Assembly: GCA_907163375.1 (NCBI GenBank)
Contig: CAJQUW010005335.1
Span: 124,001-188,000 of the forward strand
DNA length: 64,000 nucleotides
Reading direction: 5' to 3'
Origin: Prostheceraeus crozeri
Taxonomy: Eukaryota; Platyhelminthes; Polycladida; Euryleptidae
Shown piece after piece: positions 15,107 to 41,095 of the stretch (position 1 is its first letter; every line of letters starts with the position of its first letter). The position numbers and the translations under genes were made by a program. Under the pieces are notes generated by a model. The model was given only the letters and a program-made list of their open reading frames with translations. It did no database searches and was not told the DNA's origin.

Positions 15107-15340
15107 AGTAGTAAGGAAGTGACAAACACCAGATAGCGCAAGATGGCCGCCATCGCTGACTCCCCCCCTCCCCCTCCCCTCCCCCCCTCCCCGCCCCCTC
15201 CCCTCCCCCTCCCCTCCCCCTCCCCTCCCCCTCCCCCCCCTCTGGAACGGCAGAGTGTCGTGGTCGGCCGCCGTGGTGCTTTGGGTCTGAGTGTCGTGGT
15301 GGACTTGGGCGACCGCCAGGATTAGTGTTGAGGCTATAGT
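15107..15340. repeat. Left tip of the terminal inverted repeat with C-tract
   Basis: Starts AGTAGTAAGG, an AGT doublet reminiscent of the short terminal repeats of Polintons, then a unique segment, then an almost pure C/T tract (about 15164-15241) made of CCCCT and CCCCCT units. The complementary strand carries many runs of four or more G, enough for G-quadruplexes. The right tip has a shorter tract (about 41013-41041). The 60-codon proline-rich frame here is low-complexity sequence and not a gene. Confidence 0.8.
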
Positions 15341-15599
15341 GTGTGATGTTTTTCGTGCTGAATGTTGGGTTGTAAAATGGGTTGTTTCGAGTGGAAGGAG
15401 TGGTCGGATGAGAAAACGGAGGTCGGATTCGTGTTCAGCGTGAAATTCTGCATCGGTAGGGTGAGTTTCAAGGCAATCGGTGAGTAAAAATTTTCAACAT
15501 TTTTCGAAAAACGACAGAGTTAGAATTTGGGACGTTTTGGTGTGTAGCGTCCAAACGAAGCATCGGATGAGAAAACGGAGGCCAGATTCGGAATCTACG

Positions 15600-18540
15600 T
15601 GAAATTTTGGGTTAGGAAGGATGTTTCCAGCGAAATCGGAGAGAAAAAATTTTCACTGACGTCCCCCCCCCCTCTGGACAGCTTGCTTCGATTTTGGCTT
15701 CTAGTGGACGGATTTTGTCGTGCGATAGCTCGTTTGAAAGCTAAGAGTGAGACAAATTCAGTGAAAGAATCGGCTTGTTCCTATCTGTCTTCGTTCAAAA
15801 GTTAGAGCGGTTACAAGATTTTAGGTCGGAGCTCGCTTACCTGAAAAAATCCTAAGTGTCAGAGTGACTTTGTATGGGTAAAATTTTGAAAATTTTCCAA
15901 AGTGTGGAATTTCGACCTGGGACCGTCACCAAAACATTTTTCATCAAATTCTGAAATTTCACTGACCTCCCCCCCCCTCTGGACAGCTTGCTTCGATTTT
16001 GGCTTCTAGTGGACGGATTTTGTCGTGCGATAGCTCGTTTGAAAGCTAAGAGTGAGACAAGTTCAGTGAAAGAATCGGCTTGTTCCTATCTGTCTTCGTT
16101 CAAAAGTTAGAGCGGTTACAAGATTTTAGGTCGGAGCTCGCTTACCTGAAAAAATCCTAAGTGTCAGAGTGACTTTGTATGGGTAAAATTTTGAAAATTT
16201 TCCAAAGTGTGGAATTTCGACCTGGGACCGTCACCAAAACATTTTTCATCAAATTCTGAAATTTCACTGACCTCCCCCCCCCTCTGGACAGCTTGCTTCG
16301 ATTTTGGCTTCCAGTGGATGGATTTTGTCGTGCGATAGCTCGTTTGAAAGCTAAGAGTGAGACAAGTTCAGTGAAAGAATCGGCTTGTTCCTATCTGTCT
16401 TCGTTCAAAAGTTAGAGCGGTTACAAGATTTTAGGTCGGAGCTCGCTTACCTGAAAAAATCCTAAGTGTCAGAGTGACTTTGTATGGGTAAAATTTTGAA
16501 AATTTTCCAAAGTGTGGAATTTCGACCTGGGACCGTCACCAAAACATTTTTCATCAAATTCTGAAATTTCACTGACCTCCCCCCCCCTCTGGACAGCTTG
16601 CTTCGATTTTGGCTTCCAGTGGATGGATTTTGTCGTGCGATAGCTCGTTTGAAAGCTAAGAGTGAGACAAGTTCAGTGAAAGAATCGGCTTGTTCCTATC
16701 TGTCTTCGTTCAAAAGTTAGAGCGGTTACAAGATTTTAGGTCGGAGCTCGCTTACCTGAAAAAATCCTAAGTGTCAGAGTGACTTTGTATGGGTAAAATT
16801 TTGAAAATTTTCCAAAGTGTGGAATTTCGACCTGGGACCGTCACCAAAACATTTTTCATCAAATTCTGAAATTTCACTGACCTCCCCCCCCCTCTGGACA
16901 GCTTGCTTCGATTTTGGCTTCCAGTGGATGGATTTTGTCGTGCGATAGCTCGTTTGAAAGCTAAGAGTGAGACAAGTTCAGTGAAAGAATCGGCTTGTTC
17001 CTATCTGTCTTCGTTCAAAAGTTAGAGCGGTTACAAGATTTTAGGTCGGAGCTCGCTTACCTGAAAAAATCCTAAGTGTCAGAGTGACTTTGTATGGGTA
17101 AAATTTTGAAAATTTTCCAAAGTGTGGAATTTCGACCTGGGACCGTCACCAAAACATTTTTCATCAAATTCTGAAATTTCACTGACCTCCCCCCCCTCTG
17201 GACAGCTTGCTTCGATTTTGGCTTCCAGTGGATGGATTTTGTCGTGCGATAGCTCGTTTGAAAGCTAAGAGTGAGACAAGTTCAGTGAAAGAATCGGCTT
17301 GTTCCTATCTGTCTTCGTTCAAAAGTTAGAGCGGTTACAAGATTTTAGGTCGGAGCTCGCTTACCTGAAAAAATCCTAAGTGTCAGAGTGACTTTGTATG
17401 GGTAAAATTTTGAAAATTTTCCAAAGTGTGGAATTTCGACCTGGGACCGTCACCAAAACATTTTTCATCAAATTCTGAAATTTCACTGACCTCCCCCCCT
17501 CTGGACAGCTTGCTTCGATTTTGGCTTCCAGTGGATGGATTTTGTCGTGCGATAGCTCGTTTGAAAGCTAAGAGTGAGACAAATTCAGTGAAAGAATCGG
17601 CTTGTTCCTATCTGTCTTCGTTCAAAAGTTAGAGCGGTTACAAGATTTTAGGTCGGAGCTCGCTTACCTGAAAAAATCCTAAGTGTCAGAGTGACTTTGT
17701 ATGGGTAAAATTTTGAAAATTTTCCAAAGTGTGGAATTTCGACCTGGGACCGTCACCAAAACATTTTTCATCAAATTCTGAAATTTCACTGACCTCCCCC
17801 CCCTCTGGACAGCTTGCTTCGATTTTGGCTTCCAGTGGATGGATTTTGTCGTGCGATAGCTCGTTTGAAAGCTAAGAGTGAGACAAGTTCAGTGAAAGAA
17901 TCGGCTTGTTCCTATCTGTCTTCGTTCAAAAGTTAGAGCGGTTACAAGATTTTAGGTCGGAGCTCGCTTACCTGAAAAAATCCTAAGTGTCAGAGTGACT
18001 TTGTATGGGTAAAATTTTGAAAATTTTCCAAAGTGTGGAATTTCGACCTGGGACCGTCACCAAAACATTTTTCATCAAATTCTGAAATTTCACTGACCTC
18101 CCCCCCCTCTGGACAGCTTGCTTCGATTTTGGCTTCCAGTGGATGGATTTTGTCGTGCGATAGCTCGTTTGAAAGCTAAGAGTGAGACAAGTTCAGTGAA
18201 AGAATCGGCTTGTTCCTATCTGTCTTCGTTCAAAAGTTAGAGCGGTTACAAGATTTTAGGTCGGAGCTCGCTTACCTGAAAAAATCCTAAGTGTCAGAGT
18301 GACTTTGTATGGGTAAAATTTTGAAAATTTTCCAAAGTGTGGAATTTCGACCTGGGACCGTCACCAAAACATTTTTCATCAAATTCTGAAATTTCACTGA
18401 CCTCCCCCCCTCTGGACAGCTTGCTTCGATTTTGGCTTCCAGTGGATGGATTTTGTCGTGCGATAGCTCGTTTGAAAGCTAAGAGTGAGACAAATTCAGT
18501 GAAAGAATCGGCTTGTTCCTATCTGTCTTCGTTTAGATGT
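15600..18540. repeat. Left terminal array: ten ~304-bp units
   Basis: The phrase TCTGGACAGCTTGCTTCG recurs at 15673, 15978, 16283, 16588, 16893, 17197, 17500, 17804, 18108 and 18411, a spacing of 303-305 bp. Most length change is in the C-run before it (6-10 C). Units are near identical. The outermost unit is preceded, and the innermost followed, by a different spacer rich in AAAACGACAGAGTTAGAATT (15340-15660 and 18541-18780). Open frames in the array (for example 18337-19047) are by-products of the repeat. Confidence 0.9.
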
Positions 18541-18949
18541 GAGACGCCATTTAAGATTTTGGGACATTGGCGAAAAACGACAGGGTTAGAATTTGGGACG
18601 TTTTGGGCTGTAGCTTCAAAACGAAGCATCGGATGGGAAAACGGATTTCAGATTTGGAATCAGCGTCAAATTCTTTATCTGTATGGTGAGTTTCATGTCA
18701 ATCGGAGAGTTTCAAGTCAATCGGAGAGAAAAATTTTCAACATTTTTCGAAAAAACGACAGAGTTAGAATTTTTGCGATGGCTGCCTACTGTAGAGCCAA
18801 AAAGAAGCATCGGATGGGAAAACGGAGGCCAGATTCGGATTCAGCGTCAAATTCTACATGGAAATGGTGTATTTCCAGCTCAATCGGAGCACTAGAACCG
18901 GAGATAGACGGGATTTTTAGTGTTTGGATGATGGGTATTACGTCATCAG

Positions 18950-19020
18950 CTGATCGTCACACACTATATAAGCTGGGAACCGACGGAGACTTGTCATTTA
19001 GAGGAGAACGATTGTCAGAG
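18950..19020 (+). promoter_or_regulatory. TATA/Inr promoter and noncoding first exon of the coiled-coil gene
   Basis: TATATAAG starts at 18965. A TCATTT initiator has its A at 18996, exactly 31 bp downstream. Exon 1 would be about 18996-19020, ending in CAGAG followed by a GTAGGT donor at 19021. A TACGTCA (CRE-like) motif at about 18939 lies upstream. The acceptor CGCTTCAG ends at 20050, two bases before the AATG of the coding exon. The same TATA-31-Inr spacing occurs in the polymerase promoter. Inferred from sequence only. Confidence 0.65.
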
Positions 19021-20050
19021 GTAGGTCGTCTCTCTGAGCTCCGATGATAGCTTCGGACATTCCAAATTCCAAGTTTCTGTAAGAAACCGACTTAGAAAAT
19101 TTCATTGCTGATATCAGCTAAGCCGTCAGACTTAGAGGTTCGCCAGGAGATGGCCTTCGTCTCCAGGCCATAAAAGACTCCAAAACTTTAAAGGCTTGTA
19201 ACTTTGCTTCTACAAGTCCGTTTGACTTGATTCAAAAAAGGTTCGGTCGCTATTGACCTGCCCTAAGTGATGGACTACTTATAAAATTTTATAAGTAGTG
19301 CTAAAAAGTTGAAAAATTTAAATTCACTATTTTTGGAGGTTTTCTGGGGTTTTCGACCCTGCTGAAGTCAATGAAAGCATTTTTAATGATGTCTGAGCCA
19401 GTCTTCTCATGGTATAAGCGGCTTTTCACTGAAAGCGGGCAAGACATGGAGAGTTTTGCTGTAATATTCCACTGACAGGGTGTTCCTTCGGGACGGCGGA
19501 CGATGCCGTAGTGATAAGTGTGGCAAGGGAATGTGTCATATTTAAGACCGTAACCGCTGGGGCAACTCATGTTGGGCATTTGACACAGCTCTCAACGTAG
19601 CACTTTGAACGCCAATCGGTTGAGTCTTAGCTATCTTGTCATGGGTGGCCTCTAAACATCTCCATTGCAAAACGCTGGTGAATCAAGCACTCTACGGCTT
19701 GCTATCAAGCTGATCAAAGCAATAACTTGGGATGTTTCCTCAAGGTTTTCAAGTATGCTAAGTTCAAATCTGATATCATGTTTCAAATTTAACTAAGTCT
19801 AAGGCAGCTTTGAGGGGTTAGATCCCAGCTACTGTTCACTACCTTTGACTCGGCGTTGCTGTTACCACTTCGGGGCAGTGACAATGATGTCTTCAGCTGT
19901 AAATAGCGGGTATCGGGGAAGATCTCTCACTTCCCTAGTGATCAGTACAAGGCCTTCGGGCTGTCGACGGGATCGAGTGCCACTCACTACACTCAAATCT
20001 ATCATTCCTCACTAAGTGTAAAAATCATTGTTTTCCGTTTTTCGCTTCAG
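19021..20050 (+). other. Probable 5'-UTR intron of the coiled-coil gene, with 26-bp palindrome
   Basis: Bounded by GTAGGT at 19021 and CTTCAG at 20045-20050. It holds a perfect 26-bp palindrome at 19274-19299 (centre AAAATTTT). A 92-codon minus-strand frame at 19301-19579 begins MPNMSCPSGYG and has five Cys. It differs between arms by one Pro/Ser change and has no recognised domain, so I do not call it as a gene. Similar palindromic AT-rich sites can serve as operators or replication sites, but nothing shows this here. Confidence 0.5.
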
Positions 20051-20052
20051 AA

Positions 20053-21225
20053 ATGCCGAAATACAATAATATGAAGACCAGTTTCAAACTGTGTCAATGC
20101 CGGAAGGTATTCCGAGCTGACGCCTTCAAAAAGCACGCTTGTACTAACAAGAAACAGATAGGGGTCGCTCGCTACTATTGCGGAGTCCACAAAGTCAGTC
20201 GCTTAAGTGAGCGGCTGGAGGATTGGCACTCACAACACAGCGAGTGTCAAACAGGCGAAGTAGGCGAAGAAGAACGGAGTTCACTCTTCGCCACTGAGCT
20301 CCGTTCTTTAGAGCTACAATCTGCCAACGAGCAAGAACGGAGTTCACTCTTCACCACTGAGGCCACTGAGCTACAATCCGCCATTGAAGCGATTGCCGCT
20401 GTATCCTCGCTTAGTAGCGAGAGTTCGCTGACCAGCAGCGATAGTGAGGAGGAGGAGGGAGAGCTACAGTCGCAACTTATCAAGGACGTCGACCTCGATC
20501 GCGAGACCCCTACAGCCGTAACTGTGAGTGGAATTGCAACACAATGTCGCAATTTTGTCAAGCGCCCGCCGGTGATTGCCGAACGGGATAGATTAAAGAA
20601 AGAGGCGGAGAAGTTGAAGGAGGAGGCCTTCTCATACAAGGCAAAGTATGAGGACCTAAAGAACGTGGCCGGAGAGATGAAGAAGGTGAAGGAGAGATTA
20701 AGCGAGCGGGATGGCGAGTTGGAGCAGGAGAGGCTCAAGACTCTCGAGGGGAAAGCCAGAGAAGAGGCTTTGCTAGCAGAGAGGGAAAGTAGGGAGAAGG
20801 AGATACGAAGGTTGAAGGAGGAAGTGGAGAGACTCCGTGTGCAGATGGCTAAGGTTGTCGAGACGAACCACGAGCTGCACCGTTCGGCGCAGCTGGTGGA
20901 TCGCGATCGAAGGGTGCGTTCCAGTCGTCTGCACATCCCTATTAGAAAGGGGAGAGTAGCAGAAACTCCTCTCTTGTACGAGCGTGGAAGAGGGGAGAAA
21001 TGCTACTCTCGGGTGAAGAAAGGGGTGGAGTGTCTACACTTCACCTTCGATCATCGTGATCCGATCTCGAATTTCCTTTATGAGGAAGCGTCCGAGAAGA
21101 TCTGTAAGTAAAAATGACTAAATTGATATGTAAGATGATAACTCACTACTTCTTTCTTTACAGACATCCAAGAGAAGCGACCACCCGCCCCGTTGCCGGA
21201 GCCGCAGTCGAAACAACAAGCCTGA
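20053..21225 (+). CDS. Zinc-finger / coiled-coil protein, left copy (two coding exons)
   Basis: Coding exon 1 is 20053-21103, then a GTAAGT intron 21104-21163 ending TTTACAG, then exon 2 21164-21225 with stop TGA at 21223; splicing keeps the frame (a TAC codon is formed) and adds a Pro/Gln-rich tail. Unspliced, the frame would stop 8 bases into the intron. The N-terminus has CxC (C14, C16) with HxC (H28, C30) and a second Cys/His group (C43, H46, H59, H62, C65), both zinc-binding candidates. Residues about 70-110 hold a repeated ERSSLF/TEL unit. Residues about 176-285 are a highly charged heptad-rich coiled coil. No family was recognised. A DNA-binding or scaffold role is possible but is inference. 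Promoter and 5'-UTR intron lie upstream. Exon 2 overlaps the 3' end of the 216-aa gene on the other strand. The right-arm twin is at 35088-36260. Confidence 0.8.
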
Positions 21226-21827
21226 GTCCCTACCACACACCCCGAGAACGAACCATCGGCTCTCTTAAGGGCCACCATGGGGCAAGACATGATAGAACCT
21301 CCTCGCGGTTTGCCCTGGGCAGTCTTCGGACTGGCGAATACTATCATTAAGTTGAATCTGCTATCAGTCAACTTGAACGTCGCAAATGAAGTTCGGTGTA
21401 ATACTTCCTTTCGACGGGCGTTCCTGTAAAGGGCGGCGGTGAAACCCGTAGCTATGTATACCGCAAGGGACATTCGGCAATGGTCAATCTTGTTAAACCT
21501 CTCTGCGTCATGTTTGCAAGTGATTGCCTCTGTCTCAACGTAGTATGCATTCGCGCCAGGGCGACATTTAGCCAACTGTCGAAGGTTGCCTAAAACTTTC
21601 CATTGCATACGTTATGAGAACCATGAGTTCTACCTGTCTCTATCAATGAGACGAATTGATGAATGGAATGAAATGGGAGGACACTCACGCGCCACACGCA
21701 ACATAACACACTTCTCTCTTCCGTAGTCTAACAAGCTCTTTACACATGGATCGCAGTCGATTGCTATCCCTGTATCAGAAGTGTAAGCTATCTTAATTTT
21801 ATCTAACACTATTTCATCTACCATCAT
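21078..21827 (-). CDS. Unknown 216-aa protein, left copy (two exons)
   Basis: Exon 1 is 21827-21689 (ATG ATG GTA GAT). A donor GTGAGT begins at 21688, and the intron of 99 bp ends TTTTAG at 21590. Exon 2 runs 21589-21078. The 651-nt product keeps frame. Without splicing the two parts are separated by stops. The protein is Cys-rich: CDPC near residue 26, then scattered Cys, then a CC-x2-C group followed by a Gly-rich stretch near residues 180-195. No transmembrane helix is clear and no family was recognised. It lies head-to-tail behind the 151-aa gene (about 147 bp between) and is convergent with, and overlaps, the last exon of the coiled-coil gene. The right twin is at 34486-35235. Confidence 0.65.
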
Positions 21828-21974
21828 CGCCCATATGAAATGTTATAAGATTTACAAGTTAGACTAAGCGTGCTACTATTTCCAAATGAAAAAGTATACA
21901 TGGTTAAATCATCCACTGAAGCCCCATTCAAGTAAGTCAGTATGAAAGCAAAGATAATACGAAATGAACATTTA

Positions 21975-22430
21975 TTATGGCATGTATTTCAAAAGGTCTT
22001 CATCGTCAATATCGTCCCAGAGTCTGGCTTCACATAGATAACAAAAACAGTTCAGTTGCTTTAATCGTTCTTCCACTGCAAGCCTCACTTTATCAATATA
22101 CTCCCACTCTGCCATAGTTCGTGGCTGGGAGTTAGGGGTGTACCACTCCCATAATTGGTGGAGGAATTTCGTGCTGGTGATCTCCATCACATCGTCAGTA
22201 TCGTACTGGAGATACTTCCACCTCACGCCTGTTAAGTCGGGACACTCCTTCTCACATACACTCTCCTCTTCCTCGTCCGCTGGTAATGATAACTTTCGTA
22301 TATTGTCCAGTCGGTACACCTTCTCCACCTTCACCTTTCTTGGTGCATTTGGTGTAACGAGCACCTTTGCTGATGTGCATGGAGAGGAGAACTCCAATGC
22401 GGTATTTGGTGTTGTTGGAGGACTTGTCAT
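21975..22430 (-). CDS. Unknown 151-aa acidic protein, left copy
   Basis: A single frame of 151 codons. The N-terminal 45 residues are Ser/Thr/Pro-rich and probably disordered, followed by an acidic EEEE patch (about residue 54) and a more ordered C-terminal half rich in Trp (WEWY, WEYID) with a CFCYLC cysteine cluster near residue 130. No family recognised. A small nucleic-acid or polymerase partner is only a guess. It is divergent from the polymerase gene, about 225 bp between start codons, and the shared region contains an inverted CCAAT box. On its own side it has a TATACTTT-type element (22487-22494, minus strand). An AATAAA overlaps its stop codon (21971-21976). The arms differ by one Val/Ala change. 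The right twin is at 33883-34338. Confidence 0.75.
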   Translation of the reverse strand: MTSPPTTPNTALEFSSPCTSAKVLVTPNAPRKVKVEKVYRLDNIRKLSLPADEEEESVCEKECPDLTGVRWKYLQYDTDDVMEITSTKFLHQLWEWYTPNSQPRTMAEWEYIDKVRLAVEERLKQLNCFCYLCEARLWDDIDDEDLLKYMP

Positions 22431-22486
22431 GTTGTCTTTGAAATGCTGACTTTGAATAATGATAACTTTAACATTTTTCTAATTCT

Positions 22487-22655
22487 AAAGTATACACAAG
22501 CAGCCAATCAGAATGAACATCCAATGAATGAAGAGAATGAAAGTATATAAGCAAAGTGACATTCATATCATTTCATTTAATCTGTGAATCATACAAGTGA
22601 CGAACGCACGATCTCTCTCTTTGACTATTATTCTGTCTGATCATATTTCATTAAA
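22487..22655 (+). promoter_or_regulatory. Divergent promoter: CCAAT box, TATA and Inr of the polymerase gene
   Basis: AGCCAATCAG at 22502-22511 is a textbook CCAAT (NF-Y) box. TATATAA lies at 22544-22550 and a TCATTT initiator has its A at 22575, 31 bp from the TATA start, the same geometry as the promoter at 18965. Toward the 151-aa gene the minus strand carries TATACTTT (22494-22487), with a TCATTA about 34 bp downstream. The 5'-UTR of the polymerase mRNA would be about 80 nt. Confidence 0.65.
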
Positions 22656-25600
22656 ATGGTAAGTTAAAGATTTCCTCTCTCATCTCCCTCAAACGTGTGA
22701 CTAATAGCATCTTCCTCAATTTCAGGCATCAACTTCATCACCAACGCCCTCTCTTCTCGAGGAAAGTTTAGAGTTATTGAGTCAAGGTAGGTTGTAACAC
22801 TACACTGAGGCTTGAACAGAGATGATAGAATGATTTCTCTTTCAGGTGATGCGAGTTCCAGCTCAGAACTGTCGCGATATGGTAACGAGTGGGAATGTGC
22901 TGACTGTGGGCACATCTTCACGAGGAAATGGGATCTCACCCGACACATCAAGCGAGGTGTTTGTCGACCTAAGCCGGCATCAATCTCCGAAGGTAGGGAT
23001 GATTCTGTTAACGATGTCTCCTTTTCTTGCGACTTGTGCATTCAGTCTTTCGAGACACGTTTTGAACTATCTTCGCACAGACTTCAACATACACACACGA
23101 ACGATACCTACACCAACGGTACCTCCTCTATCCGACTCACTGAGGTGTCCATAAATAATTTAGTGAGGAACTACCAGATGGACTCCTCAGAAACCATTGC
23201 TAACTTTGAGGAATGGTTTCATCAAAATTCATCATTGATAGAAGCGGTCTTCAACAATTTAGACAATTTTAGGATGAAGGCGCTCATCTATCTTAAAATA
23301 AAATATGTAAAAATCGACCACCATACTGGACAAATAATAGAGAGGTTAGAGTTTCACATACCCTCCTCTCCTGCAACCGAGGTTGTAGACTATGAGTCTT
23401 GGATAAATTTTCACATCCAAGGATTAAAATTAAATATTGATAAATTTAACGAGCGCGATAGCGGTCTCATTTTTGACGGCATTGAGTCCGCCTTATTTAA
23501 AATCAGTCTATTAGGAAATCATAGTGGTCGAGGCTCCTTTAAACTTCCAAAAAATTTAAAAAACAAAACAGCAGTCATCAATGTCGATTGCGAATCGCAA
23601 TGTTTTAAATATGCTGTCCTCTCCATTCTCCACTATAATGACATCAATGCGAATCGAAATCGCACATATAGCTATAGGCAGTGGGAGAATGAATTAAACT
23701 TCGATGACTGTAATAGTGACGATATGAAAATTAAAGATATAGAAAAATTTGAAAAATTGAACAACATTAAAATAGTTCTCCATGTTTGGGAAAAAGGATT
23801 GAAGGGTGTGCGCTACAACTCGCGTTCGAGTTGTTATGAACGTACAGTAAACCTGTTATTAGTAAAACAGGATGATAGTGAGGAATGGCACTACTGCGGT
23901 ATTCCCAAAATCTCTCGCTTATACCACCACTTAGAAAACTCGAGTAGAGAGTTATATTACTGCGACAGATGTATTCGCCACTTTAGGAGGAAAACTAAAT
24001 TTGAAACTCATTATGAGTGGTGTAAGCGAGGTAAACTGCAAATGGAACGCATGCCCAAAGATAAGGAGTTTTCATATAGAGAGAATGGTGATGAACTAAG
24101 TCCTCTTCGTGTCATCTATGCTGACATCGAATGCTATATCGATGATAACATCCATCGACCAGCAGCCATTTCCTGCTATGAAGTATGGCATGATCACTTT
24201 AGGAGTAGGCAAAATAAAATGCGCGTCTGGCAAGGTGAGGATTGTATTTACCAATTCCTACAATTCCTCGAACAGGCTGTAAAATTTCAACAAAAGTATG
24301 ATGGTGAACTCTATCGCAGATCATTGCATATGACAGCAGATGATCAAGCAAAATTTGATAGTTGCAACGTTTGCCCCAAATGTAGGAAAACATTTGACGA
24401 TGATAAGATTAAGAAAGTGCGCGACCATGATCACATCACTGGTAAATTTAGAAACGCACTCTGTTCAAAATGTAATTTTTCGCTGAGGATGAAGCGGCGT
24501 ACATTACCCGTCATTTTCCATAATTTCAAGGGCTACGACAGCCATATGATAATAAAAGGAGGTTTAGGTCAAATGAAAGAGTGGAAGCTTGATGTAATAG
24601 CGCAAACGAGAGAGAAGTTTATGGCCATGACAGCAAAAGTGCCTGTCGATAAAACTAAAGAAAATAAGACGGTCTATTTTGATATAAAATTTTTAGATTC
24701 CTACCAATTTATGACTGCATCACTGGCCTCTCTCGTGCAAAATCTAAAGTCTCTTCCACTAACACAAAATCTTAAGAAACAATATCCAAATCTAACCGAT
24801 GAAGTCATCACACGGAAAGGAGTCTTTCCATATGCATATTTTGATGCAATTAGTAAACTCGGCGAGACTTCTCTTCCGCCCATAGATAAATTTAAAAATG
24901 ATTTGACCGGTGCAGAATGTAAGACCGAAGATTATGATCATGCACAAGATGCATGGATAAAATTTGACTGCCATACATTTGGTGAATATATGATTGCCTA
25001 CCTTAAGTTAGATGTATTTTTGCTGGCTGATGTATTTCAGGAGTTTCGACGAGTGGCATTAGAAGAAGATAAGTTAGATCCCGTCCACTTTGTCAGTCTG
25101 CCAGCCATGTCATTTAAGTCTGCTTTTAAAATGACTGGTGAGACCATTCATCTCTTACAAGATCCAGAGATGTATAATTTATTTGAGCGAGGAATTCGCG
25201 GTGGTCTCACATTTGTAAATAAACATAGGTTAAAATCAAAAATAGTAGGCAATGACCAGACTCATCTGAAGTATTATGACCAAAATAATTTGTATGGTAG
25301 TTCATTATCCAAACCGCTACCTCACTCTGAGTTTAGCTGGTTAGATGATAGTGAAATTCAACATTTCTCCAACCCTTCCAACATACTAGCAATTCCAGAT
25401 GAAGGTGATTGGGGATATTATTTTGAGATAGATCTAATCTATCCAAATAATATTAAACATAAAACCGTGGATTTTCCACTCGCACCCGAATCAGGTGAAG
25501 TGACCAAAGATATGTTTTCCGACTTTATGAAACAATTTCATAAAGATTTAGAATCATGCGGTCAACCCGACTATAAGCCTTGCCGCAAACTTTTACTCAC

Positions 25601-28227: not shown

Positions 28228-28234
28228 TTCCATC

Positions 28235-29685: not shown

Positions 29686-32600
29686 TTATGCTAAGACGTC
29701 TCCTGAATGTGGTAGTGTGAGTTTAATTCTTTTGGGTGGTGGTATGTTTGTGTCAGGATGTCCATGTGGAAGAGATATGTTGTGTTCTAGCCAGCACCTT
29801 TTATCCTCCCATGCTGAAAGCGCCCGTTTCCTAAAAGTATGAGTTTTGATCTCATGCGACTTAGATTTTAAGATTGTCATATTGACAAACGTTATATTTT
29901 TATTTCTATAGGCTTTCCTGAAATTCTTATGTTTCATATTTTGCACAATGGATTTTGATATGCCTTTAGCGCGCTTAATGCTATCGTCGCTATCCTTTAA
30001 TTTCATACTGTACATTTTTGGACGGAGGAGAATCATTTCAGCTATCTCCTTCCCTGCTGTCTCATCCTTAAAGCAGCCAAGTTTTGCCTTATTTTTGATG
30101 GAGTAGAGTGGATGATCAGCAGGATAATTTGATGTATCAAAATATCTTTCTAAAGATTTTCCTACTTCATTGAAATTTAAATCTTTTTGAGTGGTAATAC
30201 CTAAGAAGAAACTATCTGTATCACCACCCAACAAACGAACCTCTTTTACGAGAGGACATGGTTTTAGTATTTTATAAAAGAGTTGGTACATTTCAAGCTT
30301 AGAGTAATCTAGTACAGCTTGACCAATATAGATGGGTTTGCACAACTCAACTTCAGATTTTATCATTTTAACACCTATAAGGTCCTCATCGATAATGTCT
30401 CTATCGATGAATAGAGGTGATGAGACCAATTTGTGATACTTTTGATCATCATTAACTAGTTTGTAGTTTACGCGCTTTCTAACATCCTCCATCGTCTTAC
30501 CAAATAGACTGTTGTTCTTATATTTATAAAAATCTTTTTCAAAATTATTTTGGGCTAGTGCACGTTTCTGGCTGTTGCTATCAATATATGGTTTGAGGAA
30601 GGCTTTCTGTCTAAATTTAATAATGCGGTGAACTCTTTTTAAAATCATACCCATTTCTAAATAAAATTTTAAGATGCTAAAGTGGACTAGATAGTTTTCT
30701 TTATCATACTGGGTGAGTAAAAGTTTGCGGCAAGGCTTATAGTCGGGTTGACCGCATGATTCTAAATCTTTATGAAATTGTTTCATAAAGTCGGAAAACA
30801 TATCTTTGGTCACTTCACCTGATTCGGGTGCGAGTGGAAAATCCACGGTTTTATGTTTAATATTATTTGGATAGATTAGATCTATCTCAAAATAATATCC
30901 CCAATCACCTTCATCTGGAATTGCTAGTATGTTGGAAGGGTTGGAGAAATGTTGAATTTCACTATCATCTAACCAGCTAAACTCAGAGTGAGGTAGCGGT
31001 TTGGATAATGAACTACCATACAAATTATTTTGGTCATAATACTTCAGATGAGTCTGGTCATTGCCTACTATTTTTGATTTTAACCTATGTTTATTTACAA
31101 ATGTGAGACCACCGCGAATTCCTCGCTCAAATAAATTATACATCTCTGGATCTTGTAAGAGATGAATGGTCTCACCAGTCATTTTAAAAGCAGACTTAAA
31201 TGACATGGCTGGCAGACTGACAAAGTGGACGGGATCTAACTTATCTTCTTCTAATGCCACTCGTCGAAACTCCTGAAATACATCAGCCAGCAAAAATACA
31301 TCTAACTTAAGGTAGGCAATCATATATTCACCAAATGTATGGCAGTCAAATTTTATCCATGCATCTTGTGCATGATCATAATCTTCGGTCTTACATTCTG
31401 CACCGGTCAAATCATTTTTAAATTTATCTATGGGCGGAAGAGAAGTCTCGCCGAGTTTACTAATTGCATCAAAATATGCATATGGAAAGACTCCTTTCCG
31501 TGTGATGACTTCATCGGTTAGATTTGGATATTGTTTCTTAAGATTTTGTGTTAGTGGAAGAGACTTTAGATTTTGCACGAGAGAGGCCAGTGATGCAGTC
31601 ATAAATTGGTAGGAATCTAAAAATTTTATATCAAAATAGACCGTCTTATTTTCTTTAGTTTTATCGACAGGCACTTTTGCTGTCATGGCCATAAACTTCT
31701 CTCTCGTTTGCGCTATTACATCAAGCTTCCACTCTTTCATTTGACCTAAACCTCCTTTTATTATCATATGGCTGTCGTAGCCCTTGAAATTATGGAAAAT
31801 GACGGGTAATGTACGCCGCTTCATCCTCAGCGAAAAATTACATTTTGAACAGAGTGCGTTTCTAAATTTACCAGTGATGTGATCATGGTCGCGCACTTTC
31901 TTAATCTTATCATCGTCAAATGTTTTCCTACATTTGGGGCAAACGTTGCAACTATCAAATTTTGCTTGATCATCTGCTGTCATATGCAATGATCTGCGAT
32001 AGAGTTCACCATCATACTTTTGTTGAAATTTTACAGCCTGTTCGAGGAATTGTAGGAATTGGTAAATACAATCCTCACCTTGCCAGACGCGCATTTTATT
32101 TTGCCTACTCCTAAAGTGATCATGCCATACTTCATAGCAGGAAATGGCTGCTGGTCGATGGATGTTATCATCGATATAGCATTCGATGTCAGCATAGATG
32201 ACACGAAGAGGACTTAGTTCATCACCATTCTCTCTATATGAAAACTCCTTATCTTTGGGCATGCGTTCCATTTGCAGTTTACCTCGCTTACACCACTCAT
32301 AATGAGTTTCAAATTTAGTTTTCCTCCTAAAGTGGCGAATACATCTGTCGCAGTAATATAACTCTCTACTCGAGTTTTCTAAGTGGTGGTATAAGCGAGA
32401 GATTTTGGGAATACCGCAGTAGTGCCATTCCTCACTATCATCCTGTTTTACTAATAACAGGTTTACTGTACGTTCATAACAACTCGAACGCGAGTTGTAG
32501 CGCACACCCTTCAATCCTTTTTCCCAAACATGGAGAACTATTTTAATGTTGTTCAATTTTTCAAATTTTTCTATATCTTTAATTTTCATATCGTCACTAT

Positions 32601-33657
32601 TACAGTCATCGAAGTTTAATTCATTCTCCCACTGCCTATAGCTATATGTGCGATTTCGATTCGCATTGATGTCATTATAGTGGAGAATGGAGAGGACAGC
32701 ATATTTAAAACATTGCGATTCGCAATCGACATTGATGACTGCTGTTTTGTTTTTTAAATTTTTTGGAAGTTTAAAGGAGCCTCGACCACTATGATTTCCT
32801 AATAGACTGATTTTAAATAAGGCGGACTCAATGCCGTCAAAAATGAGACCGCTATCGCGCTCGTTAAATTTATCAATATTTAATTTTAATCCTTGGATGT
32901 GAAAATTTATCCAAGACTCATAGTCTACAACCTCGGTTGCAGGAGAGGAGGGTATGTGAAACTCTAACCTCTCTATTATTTGTCCAGTATGGTGGTCGAT
33001 TTTTACATATTTTATTTTAAGATAGATGAGCGCCTTCATCCTAAAATTGTCTAAATTGTTGAAGAGCGCTTCTATCAATGATGAATTTTGATGAAACCAT
33101 TCCTCAAAGTTAGCAATGGTTTCTGAGGAGTCCATCTGGTAGTTCCTCACTAAATTATTTATGGACACCTCAGTGAGTCGGATAGAGGAGGTACCGTTGG
33201 TGTAGGTATCGTTCGTGTGTGTATGTTGAAGTCTGTGCGAAGATAGTTCAAAACGTGTCTCGAAAGACTGAATGCACAAGTCGCAAGAAAAGGAGACATC
33301 GTTAACAGAATCATCCCTACCTTCGGAGATTGATGCCGGCTTAGGTCGACAAACACCTCGCTTGATGTGTCGGGTGAGATCCCATTTCCTCGTGAAGATG
33401 TGCCCACAGTCAGCACATTCCCACTCGTTGCCATATCGCGACAGTTCTGAGCTGGAACTCGCATCACCTGAAAGAGAAATCATTCTATCATCTCTGTTCA
33501 AGCCTCAGTGTAGTGTTACAACCTACCTTGACTCAATAACTCTAAACTTTCCTCGAGAAGAGAGGGCGTTGGTGATGAAGTTGATGCCTGAAATTGAGGA
33601 AGATGCTATTAGTCACACGTTTGAGGGAGATGAGAGAGGAAATCTTTAACTTACCAT
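29686..33657 (-). CDS. Protein-primed family B DNA polymerase fusion, right copy
   Basis: Mirror of the left copy. Exon 1 (ATG) 33657-33655, exon 2 33587-33527, exon 3 33467-29686, with the same GTAAGT/GTAGGT donors and TTTCAG acceptors. All exonuclease (DIE, HNFKGYD, YLKLD) and polymerase (NNLYG, NNSLFGK, GDTDS) motifs are intact. Differences from the left copy that I noticed: Leu for Val in the EA(V/L)FNN segment, Leu for Ile in the SSP(I/L)FID segment, and one silent GGC/GGT change near the N-terminus. Both copies look functional, so neither arm is obviously a decaying duplicate. Confidence 0.9.
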
Positions 33658-33826
33658 TTTAATGAAATATGATCAGACAGAATAATAGTCAAAGAGAGAG
33701 ATCGTGCGTTCGTCACTTGTATGATTCACAGATTAAATGAAATGATATGAATGTCACTTTGCTTATATACTTTCATTCTCTTCATTCATTGGATGTTCAT
33801 TCTGATTGGCTGCTTGTGTATACTTT
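33658..33826 (-). promoter_or_regulatory. Divergent promoter of the polymerase gene (right)
   Basis: Mirror of 22487-22655: TATA at 33769-33763, initiator A at 33738, CCAAT box at 33811-33802. TATACTTT at 33819-33826 (+) serves the 151-aa gene. Confidence 0.65.
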
Positions 33827-33882
33827 AGAATTAGAAAAATGTTAAAGTTATCATTATTCAAAGTCAGCATTTCAAAGACAAC

Positions 33883-34338
33883 ATGACAAGTCCTCCAACA
33901 ACACCAAATACCGCATTGGAGTTCTCCTCTCCATGCACATCAGCAAAGGTGCTCGTTACACCAAATGCACCAAGAAAGGCGAAGGTGGAGAAGGTGTACC
34001 GACTGGACAATATACGAAAGTTATCATTACCAGCGGACGAGGAAGAGGAGAGTGTATGTGAGAAGGAGTGTCCCGACTTAACAGGCGTGAGGTGGAAGTA
34101 TCTCCAGTACGATACTGACGATGTGATGGAGATCACCAGCACGAAATTCCTCCACCAATTATGGGAGTGGTACACCCCTAACTCCCAGCCACGAACTATG
34201 GCAGAGTGGGAGTATATTGATAAAGTGAGGCTTGCAGTGGAAGAACGATTAAAGCAACTGAACTGTTTTTGTTATCTATGTGAAGCCAGACTCTGGGACG
34301 ATATTGACGATGAAGACCTTTTGAAATACATGCCATAA
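33883..34338 (+). CDS. Unknown 151-aa acidic protein, right copy
   Basis: Mirror of 21975-22430. Same Ser/Thr/Pro-rich N-terminus, EEEE patch, Trp-rich C-terminal half and CFCYLC cluster; Ala replaces Val in the APRK(V/A)KVEK segment. AATAAA at 34337-34342 overlaps the stop codon. Upstream, TATACTTT (33819) and TCATTA (33851) form a plausible core promoter. Confidence 0.75.
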   Translation: MTSPPTTPNTALEFSSPCTSAKVLVTPNAPRKAKVEKVYRLDNIRKLSLPADEEEESVCEKECPDLTGVRWKYLQYDTDDVMEITSTKFLHQLWEWYTPNSQPRTMAEWEYIDKVRLAVEERLKQLNCFCYLCEARLWDDIDDEDLLKYMP

Positions 34339-34485
34339 TAAATGTTTATTTCGTATTATCTTTGCTTTCATACTGACTTACTTGAATGGGGCTTCAGTGG
34401 ATGATTTAACCATGTATACTTTTTCATTTGGAAATAGTAGCACGCTTAGTCTAACTTGTAAATCTTATAACATTTCATATGGGCG

Positions 34486-35235
34486 ATGATGGTAGATGAA
34501 ATAGTGTTAGATAAAATTAAGATAGCTTACACTTCTGATACAGGGATAGCAATCGACTGCGATCCATGTGTAAAGAGCTTGTTAGACTACGGAAGAGAGA
34601 AGTGTGTTATGTTGCGTGTGGCGCGTGAGTGTCCTCCCATTTCATTCCATTCATCAATTCGTCTCATTGATAGAGACAGGTAGAACTCATGGTTCTCATA
34701 ACGTATGCAATGGAAAGTTTTAGGCAACCTTCGACAGTTGGCTAAATGTCGCCCTGGCGCGAATGCATACTACGTTGAGACAGAGGCAATCACTTGCAAA
34801 CATGACGCAGAGAGGTTTAACAAGATTGACCATTGCCGAATGTCCCTTGCGGTATACATAGCTACGGGTTTCACCGCCGCCCTTTACAGGAACGCCCGTC
34901 GAAAGGAAGTATTACACCGAACTTCATTTGCGACGTTCAAGTTGACTGATAGCAGATTCAACTTAATGATAGTATTCGCCAGTCCGAAGACTGCCCAGGG
35001 CAAACCGCGAGGAGGTTCTATCATGTCTTGCCCCATGGTGGCCCTTAAGAGAGCCGATGGTTCGTTCTCGGGGTGTGTGGTAGGGACTCAGGCTTGTTGT
35101 TTCGACTGCGGCTCCGGCAACGGGGCGGGTGGTCGCTTCTCTTGGATGTCTGTAAAGAAAGAAGTAGTGAGTTATCATCTTACATATCAATTTAGTCATT
35201 TTTACTTACAGATCTTCTCGGACGCTTCCTCATAA
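34486..35235 (+). CDS. Unknown 216-aa protein, right copy (two exons)
   Basis: Exon 1 34486-34624, GTGAGT donor at 34625, intron 99 bp, TTTTAG acceptor ending 34723, exon 2 34724-35235. An alternative acceptor, GAGACAG ending at 34679, would run into a TAG after 14 codons, which supports the chosen one. Cys-rich, with a Gly-rich stretch near the C-terminus; family unknown. A GTATACTTTTT element at 34414-34424 resembles the TATACTTT of the 151-aa gene. Confidence 0.65.
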
Positions 35236-36260
35236 AGGAAATTCGAGATCGGATCACGATGATCGAAGGTGAAGTGTAGACACTCCACCCCTTTCTTCAC
35301 CCGAGAGTAGCATTTCTCCCCTCTTCCACGCTCGTACAAGAGAGGAGTTTCTGCTACTCTCCCCTTTCTAATAGGGATGTGCAGACGACTGGAACGCACC
35401 CTTCGATCGCGATCCACCAGCTGCGCCGAACGGTGCAGCTCGTGGTTCGTCTCGACAACCTTAGCCATCTGCACACGGAGTCTCTCCACTTCCTCCTTCA
35501 ACCTTCGTATCTCCTTCTCCCTACTTTCCCTCTCTGCTAGCAAAGCCTCTTCTCTGGCTTTCCCCTCGAGAGTCTTGAGCCTCTCCTGCTCCAACTCGCC
35601 ATCCCGCTCGCTTAATCTCTCCTTCACCTTCTTCATCTCTCCGGCCACGTTCTTTAGGTCCTCATACTTTGCCTTGTATGAGAAGGCCTCCTCCTTCAAC
35701 TTCTCCGCCTCTTTCTTTAATCTATCCCGTTCGGCAATCACCGGCGGGCGCTTGACAAAATTGCGACATTGTGTTGCAATTCCACTCACAGTTACGGCTG
35801 TAGGGGTCTCGCGATCGAGGTCGACGTCCTTGATAAGTTGCGACTGTAGCTCTCCCTCCTCCTCCTCACTATCGCTGCTGGTCAGCGAACTCTCGCTACT
35901 AAGCGAGGATACAGCGGCAATCGCTTCAATGGCGGATTGTAGCTCAGTGGCCTCAGTGGTGAAGAGTGAACTCCGTTCTTGCTCGTTGGCAGATTGTAGC
36001 TCTAAAGAACGGAGCTCAGTGGCGAAGAGTGAACTCCGTTCTTCTTCGCCTACTTCGCCTGTTTGACACTCGCTGTGTTGTGAGTGCCAATCCTCCAGCC
36101 GCTCACTTAAGCGACTGACTTTGTGGACTCCGCAATAGTAGCGAGCGACCCCTATCTGTTTCTTGTTAGTACAAGCGTGCTTTTTGAAGGCGTCAGCTCG
36201 GAATACCTTCCGGCATTGACACAGTTTGAAACTGGTCTTCATATTATTGTATTTCGGCAT
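35088..36260 (-). CDS. Zinc-finger / coiled-coil protein, right copy (two coding exons)
   Basis: Mirror of 20053-21225: exon 1 36260-35210, intron 35209-35150 (GTAAGT...TTTACAG), exon 2 35149-35088. Over the first 352 codons it is identical to the left copy, including both Cys/His groups and the coiled coil. Exon 2 overlaps the 3' part of the 216-aa gene on the plus strand. Confidence 0.8.
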
Positions 36261-36262
36261 TT

Positions 36263-37292
36263 CTGAAGCGAAAAACGGAAAACAATGATTTTTACACTTA
36301 GTGAGGAATGATAGATTTGAGTGTAGTGAGTGGCACTCGATCCCGTCGACAGCCCGAAGGCCTTGTACTGATCACTAGGGAAGTGAGAGATCTTCCCCGA
36401 TACCCGCTATTTACAGCTGAAGACATCATTGTCACTGCCCCGAAGTGGTAACAGCAACGCCGAGTCAAAGGTAGTGAACAGTAGCTGGGATCTAACCCCT
36501 CAAAGCTGCCTTAGACTTATTTAAATTTGAAACATGATATCAGATTTGAACTTAGCATACTTGAAAACCTTGAGGAAACATCCCAAGTTATTGCTTTGAT
36601 CAGCTTGATAGCAAGCCGTAGAGTGCTTGATTCACCAGCGTTTTGCAATGGAGATGTTTAGAGGCCACCCATGACAAGATAGCTAAGACTCAACCGATTG
36701 GCGTTCAAAGTGCTACGTTGAGAGCTGTGTCAAATGCCCAACATGAGTTGCCCCAGCGGTTACGGTCTTAAATATGACACATTCCCTTGCCACACTTATC
36801 ACTACGGCATCGTCCGCCGTCCCGAAGGAACACCCTGTCAGTGGAATATTACAGCAAAACTCTCCATGTCTTGCTCGCTTTCAGTGAAAAGCCGCTTATA
36901 CCATGAGAAGACTGGCTCAGACATCATTAAAAATGCTTTCATTGACTTCAGCAGGGTCGAAAACCCCAGAAAACCTCCAAAAATAGTGAATTTAAATTTT
37001 TCAACTTTTTAGCACTACTTATAAAATTTTATAAGTAGTCCATCACTTAGGGCAGGTCAATAGCGACCGAACCTTTTTTGAATCAAGTCAAACGGACTTG
37101 TAGAAGCAAAGTTACAAGCCTTTAAAGTTTTGGAGTCTTTTATGGCCTGGAGACGAAGGCCATCTCCTGGCGAACCTCTAAGTCTGACGGCTTAGCTGAT
37201 ATCAGCAATGAAATTTTCTAAGTCGGTTTCTTACAGAAACTTGGAATTTGGAATGTCCGAAGCTATCATCGGAGCTCAGAGAGACGACCTAC
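36263..37292 (-). other. Probable 5'-UTR intron of the right coiled-coil gene
   Basis: Mirror of 19021-20050 with the 26-bp palindrome at 37014-37039. A single G/T difference from the left arm is visible near 36520, and one Pro/Ser codon difference in the uncalled 92-codon frame 36734-37012. Confidence 0.5.
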
Positions 37293-37363
37293 CTCTGACA
37301 ATCGTTCTCCTCTAAATGACAAGTCTCCGTCGGTTCCCAGCTTATATAGTGTGTGACGATCAG
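37293..37363 (-). promoter_or_regulatory. TATA/Inr promoter of the right coiled-coil gene
   Basis: Mirror of 18950-19020: TATATAAG starting at 37348 (minus) and initiator A at 37317, 31 bp apart. Confidence 0.65.
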
Positions 37364-37772
37364 CTGATGACGTAATACCCATCATCCAAACACTAAAAAT
37401 CCCGTCTATCTCCGGTTCTAGTGCTCCGATTGAGCTGGAAATACACTATTTCCATGTAGAATTTGACGCTGAATCAGAATCTGGCCTCCGTTTTCCCATC
37501 CGATGCTTCGTTTTGGCTCTACAGTAGGCAGCCATCGCAAAAATTCTAACTCTGTCGTTTTTCCGAAAAATGTTGAAAATTTTTCTCTCCGATTGACTTG
37601 AAACTCTCCGATTGACATGAAACTCACCATACAGATAAAGAATTTGACGCTGATTCCAAATCTGAAATCCGTTTTCCCATCCGATGCTTCGTTTTGAAGC
37701 TACAGCCCAAAACGTCCCAAATTCTAACTCTGTCGTTTTTCGCCAATGTCCCAAAATCTTAAATGGCGTCTC

Positions 37773-40700
37773 ACATCTAAACGAAGACAGATAGGAACAA
37801 GCCGATTCTTTCACTGAATTTGTCTCACTCTTAGCTTTCAAACGAGCTATCGCACGACAAAATCCATCCACTGGAAGCCAAAATCGAAGCAAGCTGTCCA
37901 GAGGGGGGGGGAGGTCAGTGAAATTTCAGAATTTGATGAAAAATGTTTTGGTGACGGTCCCAGGTCGAAATTCCACACTTTGGAAAATTTTCAAAATTTT
38001 ACCCATACAAAGTCACTCTGACACTTAGGATTTTTTCAGGTAAGCGAGCTCCGACCTAAAATCTTGTAACCGCTCTAACTTTTGAACGAAGACAGATAGG
38101 AACAAGCCGATTCTTTCACTGAACTTGTCTCACTCTTAGCTTTCAAACGAGCTATCGCACGACAAAATCCATCCACTGGAAGCCAAAATCGAAGCAAGCT
38201 GTCCAGAGGGGGGGGGGAGGTCAGTGAAATTTCAGAATTTGATGAAAAATGTTTTGGTGACGGTCCCAGGTCGAAATTCCACACTTTGGAAAATTTTCAA
38301 AATTTTACCCATACAAAGTCACTCTGACACTTAGGATTTTTTCAGGTAAGCGAGCTCCGACCTAAAATCTTGTAACCGCTCTAACTTTTGAACGAAGACA
38401 GATAGGAACAAGCCGATTCTTTCACTGAACTTGTCTCACTCTTAGCTTTCAAACGAGCTATCGCACGACAAAATCCATCCACTGGAAGCCAAAATCGAAG
38501 CAAGCTGTCCAGAGGGGGGGGGACGTCAGTGAAAATTTTTTCTCTCCGATTTCGCTGGAAACATCCTTCCTAACCCAAAATTTCACGTAGATTCCGAATC
38601 TGGCCTCCGTTTTCTCATCCGATGCTTCGTTTGGGCGCTACACACCAAAACGTCCCAAATTCTAACTCTGTCGTTTTTTCGAAAAATGTTGAAAATTTTT
38701 CTCTCCGATTGACTTGAAACTCACCATACAGATAAAGAATTTGACGCTGATTCCAAATCTGAAATCCGTTTTCCAATCCGATGCTTCGTTTTGAAGCTAC
38801 AGCCCAAAACGTCCCAAATTCTAACTCTGTCGTTTTTCGCCAATGTCCCAAAATCTTAAATGGCGTCTCACATCTAAACGAAGACAGATAGGAACAAGCC
38901 GATTCTTTCACTGAATTTGTCTCACTCTTAGCTTTCAAACGAGCTATCGCACGACAAAATCCATCCACTGGAAGCCAAAATCGAAGCAAGCTGTCCAGAG
39001 GGGGGGGGGAGGTCAGTGAAATTTCAGAATTTGATGAAAAATGTTTTGGTGACGGTCCCAGGTCGAAATTCCACACTTTGGAAAATTTTCAAAATTTTAC
39101 CCATACAAAGTCACTCTGACACTTAGGATTTTTTCAGGTAAGCGAGCTCCGACCTAAAATCTTGTAACCGCTCTAACTTTTGAACGAAGACAGATAGGAA
39201 CAAGCCGATTCTTTCACTGAACTTGTCTCACTCTTAGCTTTCAAACGAGCTATCGCACGACAAAATCCGTCCACTAGAAGCCAAAATCGAAGCAAGCTGT
39301 CCAGAGGGGGGGGGAGGTCAGTGAAATTTCAGAATTTGATGAAAAATGTTTTGGTGACGGTCCCAGGTCGAAATTCCACACTTTGGAAAATTTTCAAAAT
39401 TTTACCCATACAAAGTCACTCTGACACTTAGGATTTTTTCAGGTAAGCGAGCTCCGACCTAAAATCTTGTAACCGCTCTAACTTTTGAACGAAGACAGAT
39501 AGGAACAAGCCGATTCTTTCACTGAACTTGTCTCACTCTTAGCTTTCAAACGAGCTATCGCACGACAAAATCCATCCACTGGAAGCCAAAATCGAAGCAA
39601 GCTGTCCAGAGGGGGGGGGGACGTCAGTGAAAATTTTTTCTCTCCGATTTCGCTGGAAACATCCTTCCTAACCCAAAATTTCACGTAGATTCCGAATCTG
39701 GCCTCCGTTTTCTCATCCGATGCTTCGTTTGGGCGCTACACACCAAAACGTCCCAAATTCTAACTCTGTCGTTTTTTCGAAAAATGTTGAAAATTTTTTC
39801 TCTCCGATTGACTTGAAACTCACCATACAGATAAAGAATTTCACGCTGATTCCAAATCTGAAATCCGTTTTCCAATCCGAGCCTTCGTTTTGAAGCTACA
39901 GCCCAAAACGTCCCAAATTCTAACTCTGTCGTTTTTCGCCAATGTCCCAAAATCTTAAATGGCGTCTCACATCTAAACGAAGACAGATAGGAACAAGCCG
40001 ATTCTTTCACTGAATTTGTCTCACTCTTAGCTTTCAAACGAGCTATCGCACGACAAAATCCGTCCACTAGAAGCCAAAATCGAAGCAAGCTGTCCAGAGG
40101 GGGGGGGGACGTCAGTGAAAATTTTTTCTCTCCGATTTCGCTGGAAACATCCTTCCTAACCCAAAATTTCACGTAGATTCCGAATCTGGCCTCCGTTTTC
40201 TCATCCGATGCTTCGTTTGGGCGCTACACACCAAACGTCCCAAATTCTAACTCTGTCGTTTTTTCGAAAAATGTTGAAAATTTTTTCTCTCCGATTGACT
40301 TGAAACTCACCATACAGATAAAGAATTTCACGCTGATTCCAAATCTGAAATCCGTTTTCCAATCCGAGCCTTCGTTTTGAAGCTACAGCCCAAAACGTCC
40401 AAATTCTAACTCTGTCGTTTTTCGCCAATGTCCCAAAATCTTAAATGGCGTCTCACATCTAAACGAAGACAGATAGGAACAAGCCGATTCTTTCACTGAA
40501 TTTGTCTCACTCTTAGCTTTCAAACGAGCTATTGCACGACAAAATCCGTCCACTAGAAGCCAAAATCGAAGCAAGCTGTCCAGAGGGGGGGGGACGTCAG
40601 TGAAAATTTTTTCTCTCCGATTTCGCTGGAAACATCCTTCCTAACCCAAAATTTCACGTAGATTCCGAATCTGGCCTCCGTTTTCTCATCCGATGCTTCG

Positions 40701-40860
40701 TTTGGACGCTACACACCAAAACGTCCCAAATTCTAACTCTGTCGTTTTTCGAAAAATGTTGAAAATTTTTACTCACGATTGCCTTGAAACTCACCCTACC
40801 GATGCAGAATTTCACGCTGAACACGAATCCGACCTCCGTTTTCTCATCCGACCACTCCTT
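37773..40860. repeat. Right terminal array: eight units of two lengths
   Basis: The phrase TCCAGAGGGGG recurs at about 37897, 38202, 38508, 38994, 39300, 39604, 40093 and 40579: spacings 305, 306, 486, 306, 304, 489 and 486. The long spacings contain an extra spacer (about 38522-38880, 39613-39970 and 40100-40460) with the TTTCGCTGGAAACATCC and CTCTGTCGTTTTT phrases. In the left arm this spacer type occurs only at the two edges of the array. Arm homology in strict register stops near 37782 (left 18531). Confidence 0.9.
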
Positions 40861-41095
40861 CCACTCGAAACAACCCATTTTACAACCCAACATTCAGCAC
40901 GAAAAACATCACACACTATAGCCTCAACACTAATCCTGGCGGTCGCCCAAGTCCACCACGACACTCAGACCCAAAGCACCACGGCGGCCGACCACGACAC
41001 TCTGCCGTTCCAGAGGGGGGGAGGGGAGGGGGAGGGGGGGAGTCAGCGATGGCGGCCATCTTGCGCTATCTGGTGTTTGTCACTTCCTTACTACT
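40861..41095. repeat. Right tip of the terminal inverted repeat with G-tract
   Basis: Complement of the left tip, ending CTTACTACT. The G-tract at about 41013-41041 is shorter than its left partner. Outside, GTCATTGAAG is unrelated to the left flank. Confidence 0.8.

Follow-up and report, generated by a model that had tools for sequence, protein, structure and literature searches.

A palindromic Maverick/Polinton derivative in the genome of the flatworm Prostheceraeus crozeri

A 64,000-nucleotide stretch of the genome of the polyclad flatworm Prostheceraeus crozeri (GenBank assembly GCA_907163375.1, contig CAJQUW010005335.1, positions 124,001 to 188,000; C4432:124001-188000 in a genome of 2.05 Gb and 14,165 contigs), hereafter the window, contains a palindromic mobile element of 25,989 bp from tip to tip (15107..41095). 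The palindrome is real in the assembly, and the element is a derivative rather than a complete Maverick, as it lacks both the integrase half and the 6-bp target duplication of such elements. Judged from the sequence of the genome assembly, the locus is probably a snapback derivative of an ordinary, highly amplified Maverick/Polinton that was mobilised in trans.

One half of a Maverick, doubled around a short loop

Comparison of the window with itself by BLAST yields one inverted pair, 17781-28085 against 38538-28228, with 99.81% identity over 10,311 columns and 14 mismatches. The left arm (15107..28085, plus strand) and the right arm, its inverted copy (28228..41095, minus strand), are separated by a 142-bp loop (28086..28227, plus strand), and the coordinates of their inner ends add up to 56313. 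The element tip (AGTAGTAAGG...) opens at 15107 and its complement closes at 41095; 84 bases are shared exactly at the outer tips (15106-15189 and 41096-41013), one more than belongs to the element, the extra C being a flanking base common to both sides. The flanks outside the element show no relation to each other. A polymerase-type open reading frame (ORF) of 1271 amino acids and smaller ORFs are each present in two copies, with each polymerase facing the axis. A single end is doubled here as an inverted repeat round a short loop, so that both ends carry the same terminus, which is the layout of a snapback. A first-pass annotation, made from the letters of the window, had described a head-to-head palindromic element centred on a polymerase, here of family-B type, with exactly complementary tips and unrelated outer flanks, and this description stands. 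It had also stated that all genes occur twice with mirror coordinates summing to 56313, which holds for the doubled ORFs and the inner ends of the arms but not for the terminal tandem arrays. The latter are alike without being mirror images: the left one (15651..18533, plus strand) comprises 9.5 units of 305 bp, whereas the right one (37780..40820, minus strand) is built differently, from 2.5 and again 2.5 units of about 305 bp plus 2.7 units of 488 bp.

The element from which the window copy derives was read at C12465 (L031; C12465:663604-687424) and C10515 (L033), the two copies with both ends read, which measure 23,821 bp and 23,688 bp, respectively. The C12465 copy is identical to the window (100%) up to position 28237; beyond it lie about 12 kb more, holding ORFs for a 476-aa protein, a protease-like protein, a 427-aa capsid candidate, a basic 152-aa protein, an integrase with chromodomain, an ATPase-like protein and others; after these integrase/capsid-side ORFs follow a terminal array and the far tip, and the arrays at its two ends are homologous to each other. 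Over a compared length of 5.5 kb the C10515 copy is 99.9% identical to it; the agreement extends to pieces of C1527 and C2605, and the C2605 copy (L075) crosses the axis unbroken. In the C12465 copy a 406-aa protein matches PF00665 (E=1.3e-10) and Chromo (E=6.4e-07), both above cut-off. The protease candidate stays below the cut-offs with Peptidase_C48 (19.2 bits, cut-off 20.7) and Peptidase_C5 (E=0.045), as does the ATPase candidate with Pox_A32 (E=0.026). For the 427-aa and 476-aa proteins, double jelly-roll capsid and penton candidates by their position, no significant Pfam match was found, nor an NCBIfam match for the 427-aa protein. Passages of PMC6431247 describe Maverick/Polinton elements as combining a protein-primed PolB with a retroviral-like integrase. 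By their integrase, terminal repeats and 6-bp duplication, the C12465 and C10515 copies are Mavericks; the polymerase, capsid, protease and ATPase identities, based on matches below cut-off or on motifs and position, are weaker. In contrast to this parent, with its terminal inverted repeats, integrase core plus chromodomain, length of 23.7-23.8 kb (two copies) and 6-bp duplication, the window copy has one half twice, in inverted orientation, and lacks the integrase/capsid half.

Among the 17 normal copies tested, 15 bear an exact duplication of 6 bp at the target site. Sixteen tip pairs had been chosen for two intact tips among 100 tips listed, and the other two copies were those read first. 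In the first batch of ten pairs all nine that could be scored had exact duplications (C1191 was dropped because its flank lies off the contig); in the second, five of six were exact and C674 differed at one of six bases. The duplication of the C10515 copy is exact, and the C12465 copy, otherwise structurally normal, has none (TATGGT / AATGCT), having been either recombined between elements or misassembled.

In this genome, the normal form is by far the more numerous. A 38-base pattern of the unbroken axis occurs 5,680 times genome-wide and a 44-base pattern of the palindromic junction three times, namely in the window, at C3249 and at C8023 (at most two mismatches in both searches). The palindromic share is thus 3 of 5,683 axis sites at this junction, and palindromes with other axes escape a search that sees this axis only. 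Element tips number 1,615 (at most one mismatch). From 37,391 candidates of a polymerase search 37 loci were scored, all of them near-identical and open, and the only head-to-head pair among them is that of the window, whose own arms are two of the 37. If all copies are full-length, the near-identity of these polymerases points to a large and recent burst of Maverick expansion; on the same condition, 5,680 copies of 23.7 kb would make up about 6-7% of the genome. The first-pass annotation had envisaged a family in which the inverted repeat had come to occupy the whole element, without integration or virion genes, and had suggested counting palindromic against linear copies. This count, 3 versus 5,680, goes against such a family, and past the unbroken axis (C12465, C10515 and, in part, C2605) a normal Maverick goes on, its integrase and virion-type genes being seen in C12465.

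The junction and its relatives

Where the arms of the palindrome end, the normal element has a 10-bp inverted repeat. The left half of this repeat (CATGATGGAA; 28076..28085, plus strand) has its reverse complement at 28228-28237 (TTCCATCATG; plus strand), which are the last bases common to the window and the normal element. Past 28237 the normal copy enters its integrase/capsid half, and the window turns back along its own arm. The loop between the two halves is colinear with the C12465 copy (0/142 differences). To judge by this agreement, the axis is a fold-back junction at the 10-bp inverted repeat, and such a junction requires a 3' end able to pair with its own strand.

The palindromes at C8023 (68566-88632) and C3249 (54035-75883) are bordered on both sides by exact 6-bp duplications, TACGTC and AGTACC, respectively, so that duplications are found at two of the three loci sharing this junction. 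Palindromic DNA with two identical tips therefore seems to have served as a substrate of the integrase. As the palindromes encode no integrase, help would then have come from complete copies, in trans; insertion of a palindrome with target duplication moreover requires a free molecule before integration. The snapback layout of the window is also present in C8023 and, at the axis and ends only, in C3249. Both polymerases of C8023 are full length and have no stop. Its arms differ from each other at 14 of 6171 sites, and in comparisons with 13 of the 28 normal copies arm 1 showed 165-188 differences in 6420-6681 sites and arm 2 149-170 in 6167-6171 sites (about 2.4-2.9%). From the window C8023 and C3249 differ by approximately 1.5-2.5%. 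All four of their arms carry 27923T and 27969T, alleles that neither the window nor any of the 27 normal copies readable there possesses (L024 was unreadable); the normal copies compared were the best-scoring ones, and older ones could hold these alleles. Their loops share 28133T and 28213T in a comparison with the window and one normal copy only.

The opposite half of the element can be doubled as well. Among 100 unbroken-axis places listed, two face away from each other at a distance of 636 bp, and they mark a palindrome of the integrase/capsid side at C167 (373300-375100; L076), whose arms are 99.3% identical over 846 columns and enclose a 108-bp loop. Its junction sits at an imperfect short inverted repeat. 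At this locus 1.8 kb round the axis were read, together with 3 kb at the left end; the left tip is decayed and the right end lies off the contig.

The window locus is not one clean dimer because its arms differ in lineage-informative alleles. All four alleles of a sublineage (22333A, 22883T, 26513A and 27800G) are present in the left arm. Seven of 30 loci compared, including this arm, combine 22333A and 22883T with 26513A and, if the site is readable (in L024 it is not), with 27800G. At the mirror positions of 27800, 26513, 22883 and 22333 the right arm shows the left-arm sublineage at the two sites near the axis (28513, 29800) and the other lineage at the two outer sites (33430, 33980), which places the allele switch within 29800..33430. 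Each arm differs at only 3 of 6774 sites from the normal copies L011 and L014, and the arms have private differences at 21966, 23247 and 25899 (left) and at 27382 (right). The flanks are equally disparate. Flank A (14741..15106, plus strand) lies in an interspersed repeat whose copies are 85-91% identical among 40 scored, and in the three copies read the repeat runs on past the insertion point into sequence that does not resemble flank B. Flank B (41096..42095, plus strand) has a 96% copy at C9936, where the 577 bases adjoining the junction contain no element sequence and the sequence on the far side does not resemble flank A. No place matching the missing right side of insertion A came up with three mismatches allowed, the repeat being variable between copies. 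By alleles and flanks taken together, the flanks of the window copy come from two insertion sites and its outer right part has been recombined or misjoined; one switch to another element between 29800 and 33430 would account at once for the alleles, for the two flanks and for the absence of a duplication. For this outer right part, misassembly and real recombination are about evenly balanced. Because the arms are close to L011 and L014 and lack the C8023/C3249 alleles, and because the loop equals that of C12465, either the 10-bp repeat has been used at least twice or recombination has carried the junction into young sequence.

Origin of the palindromes

The snapback reading can be put as a sequence of steps. 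The element would be copied as free linear DNA by its own protein-primed polymerase with strand displacement, and a 3' end would halt near window position 28237. This end would then fold through the 10-bp repeat, prime its own extension and copy back to the tip, leaving the 142-bp loop; the junction itself is present in the assembly. Once the hairpin is opened in the next round, the product would be a linear palindrome that carries one and the same functional tip at both ends and two polymerase genes but no integrase. Such molecules would be inserted by integrase from complete elements, with 6-bp duplications of the kind found at two loci. At the window locus, finally, the outer right arm and the right flank appear in the sequence as a different insertion, for which ectopic recombination, break-induced copying or misassembly may be responsible. 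To our knowledge, protein-primed linear replication of Mavericks has been deduced from gene content, and the cycle itself has not been observed. A more far-reaching version, which we advance tentatively, holds that Mavericks are copied as free linear DNA by way of single-stranded intermediates and time and again form snapbacks of both halves, which are integrated and perhaps packaged in trans, in the manner of the defective-interfering genomes of adeno-associated virus (AAV). The palindromic insertions would in that case be chromosomal fossils of the replication cycle.

Several observations weigh against the snapback reading. A ten-base inverted repeat is nothing unusual here, with eight hits at six sites in 18900-28237; in 100 block shuffles such hits averaged 2.42 and numbered at most 11. 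Nor is the folded strand more stable than shuffled sequence (z -0.59, with 51 of 200 shuffles at least as stable). Use of the 10-bp repeat for fold-back is therefore plausible without being predicted by its strength, as it is one of six comparable sites and the strand has no unusual stability. The window copy has no target duplication (TGTATC / GTCATT), and the identity of its junction with the older one calls for renewed fold-back at the 10-bp repeat or for recombination. The arms of C8023 are 99.8% alike near the axis and 97.2-99.1% farther out, and approximately 850 bp are missing from its right arm, so that the outer parts have had a separate history. C3249, read in part, mirrors itself at axis and ends, but the inner stretches read differ, the left one being foreign sequence with an open frame and the right one holding a different open frame. 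The protein-primed nature of the polymerase is taken from motifs read by eye, no polymerase model having matched. Moreover, as both ends of the normal copy share the terminal array, a palindrome might also arise within an integrated copy without loss of the duplication.

The last point leads to the chief alternative, which we consider rather unlikely, namely fold-back after insertion. A break inside an integrated Maverick would have left an end that folded at the 10-bp repeat, was extended outward over its own half and became rejoined to the chromosome through homology with the element's own opposite terminal array, with the duplication kept, or with another element, as in the window copy. The homology of the arrays at both ends fits this course, and so does the window right arm, which keeps left-arm alleles near the axis, switches lineage and ends in another flank, a pattern expected from break-induced copying with template switch. 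The lower similarity of the C8023 arms away from the axis (97.2-99.1% versus 99.8%) can be added, but the junction and private alleles shared by C8023 and C3249 favour one palindrome at two sites.

That the palindrome is an artefact, made by a library fold-back chimera or a misjoin, seems improbable, even though thousands of near-identical copies invite misjoins, the window copy joins two insertion sites without a target duplication, and the normal copy at C12465, also without duplication, indicates that chimeric ends occur in the assembly or the genome. Against it stand the private differences of the window arms and the junction shared by three loci, two of which differ by about 1.5-2.5% from the window and bear exact duplications. 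We rejected a pure library chimera for all loci on account of the target duplications at C8023 and C3249. It is hardly credible, lastly, that the palindrome with two polymerases is the normal autonomous form of a distinct family. Such a form would agree with the junction shared by three loci, two with insertion duplications, but no integrase is encoded, palindromes make up only 3 of 5,683 axis sites at this junction, and the distance of the window arms from the normal copies L011 and L014 (3/6774 sites) shows that the palindrome derives from the normal element. A polymerase-only palindromic family was accordingly rejected by the copy count (3 versus 5,680).

The snapback reading has parallels in other linear DNAs. 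Sections of PMC8235507 describe snapback genomes (SBGs) of AAV, termed 5'-SBG and 3'-SBG, in which the left or right half is self-complementary with one terminus; they are symmetric or looped, and both halves occur. The P. crozeri palindromes are similar, with a half-element doubled round a loop and polymerase-side as well as integrase-side forms. Unlike AAV, a parvovirus with Rep whose snapbacks are described there as molecules in virus particles, the elements studied here are Mavericks and chromosomal insertions. Yeast has a 'hairpin plasmid' (Kikuchi et al. 1985, cited in PMC4443254). It reportedly goes back to a linear protein-primed killer plasmid that gave rise to hairpin and palindromic deletion derivatives; this plasmid is cytoplasmic and not integrated, whereas the Maverick palindromes are chromosomal. 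In defective adenovirus genomes, protein-primed strand displacement yields palindromes of the left end, which are free viral DNA rather than chromosomal insertions. Foldback elements (FB/Galileo) have long inverted repeats with terminal tandem arrays. They use different transposases, in contrast to the parent described here with its rve integrase and family-B-type polymerase, and a foldback-type transposon was rejected because the parent carries that integrase. In the literature searched (titles and abstract openings, with subscription journals mostly outside) there was no description of a palindromic Maverick. If the snapback reading is correct, palindromic copies are a countable and datable record of a replication intermediate and also record help in trans by complete elements. 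Maverick particles have not been observed so far, according to the abstract of PMC8097293.

Genes of the arms and neighbouring sequence

Both 1271-aa polymerase ORFs are open (22812..26627, plus strand; 29686..33501, minus strand), and neither window arm holds an ORF matching a retroviral-like DDE integrase, which bears out the statement of the first-pass annotation that the element has two polymerases and no integrase. Motifs that look like the exonuclease and polymerase motifs of family B can be read in the sequence by eye. The ORF further includes an N-terminal C2H2 finger and, between the first and second exonuclease motifs (residues 520-558), an endonuclease-VII (HNH) domain. Neither Pfam nor NCBIfam gave a matching polymerase model; the PDB sequence searches yielded no polymerase, with zinc fingers and one chance match at best, the PHROGs search nothing beyond endonuclease VII, and in the viral contigs searched no relative of the polymerase was found.

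A 381-aa fragment is present next to the axis in both arms (26933..28078, minus strand; 28235..29380, plus strand). It begins at an internal Met, its N-terminus having been removed by the junction; in the normal copy the frame stays open for up to 139 residues further upstream. At 23% identity the fragment is paralogous to the 476-aa protein found in the normal element, and its single-sequence fold reached a pLDDT of only 32. This pair (L031:1377-2804 and window 28235-29377), without a family match, are perhaps two penton-like or minor capsid proteins. The smaller ORFs of the arms are one of 352 aa (20053..21111, plus strand; 35202..36260, minus strand), coiled-coil-like by eye and without a significant Pfam match, and one of 151 aa (21975..22430, minus strand; 33883..34338, plus strand). 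In the right arm of the C3249 palindrome (C3249:72800-74173, L072) a 377-aa open frame matches neither the window nor the normal copies L031/L032, making the arms of that locus mosaic.

Outside the element, the window contains tandem arrays at 56423-57605 and 58492-59730, with units of 355 bp and 205 bp, an ORF with a PHD finger at 9136-9948 (E=2.4e-05) and a reverse-transcriptase fragment at 62298-63341 (PF00078, E=1.6e-12).

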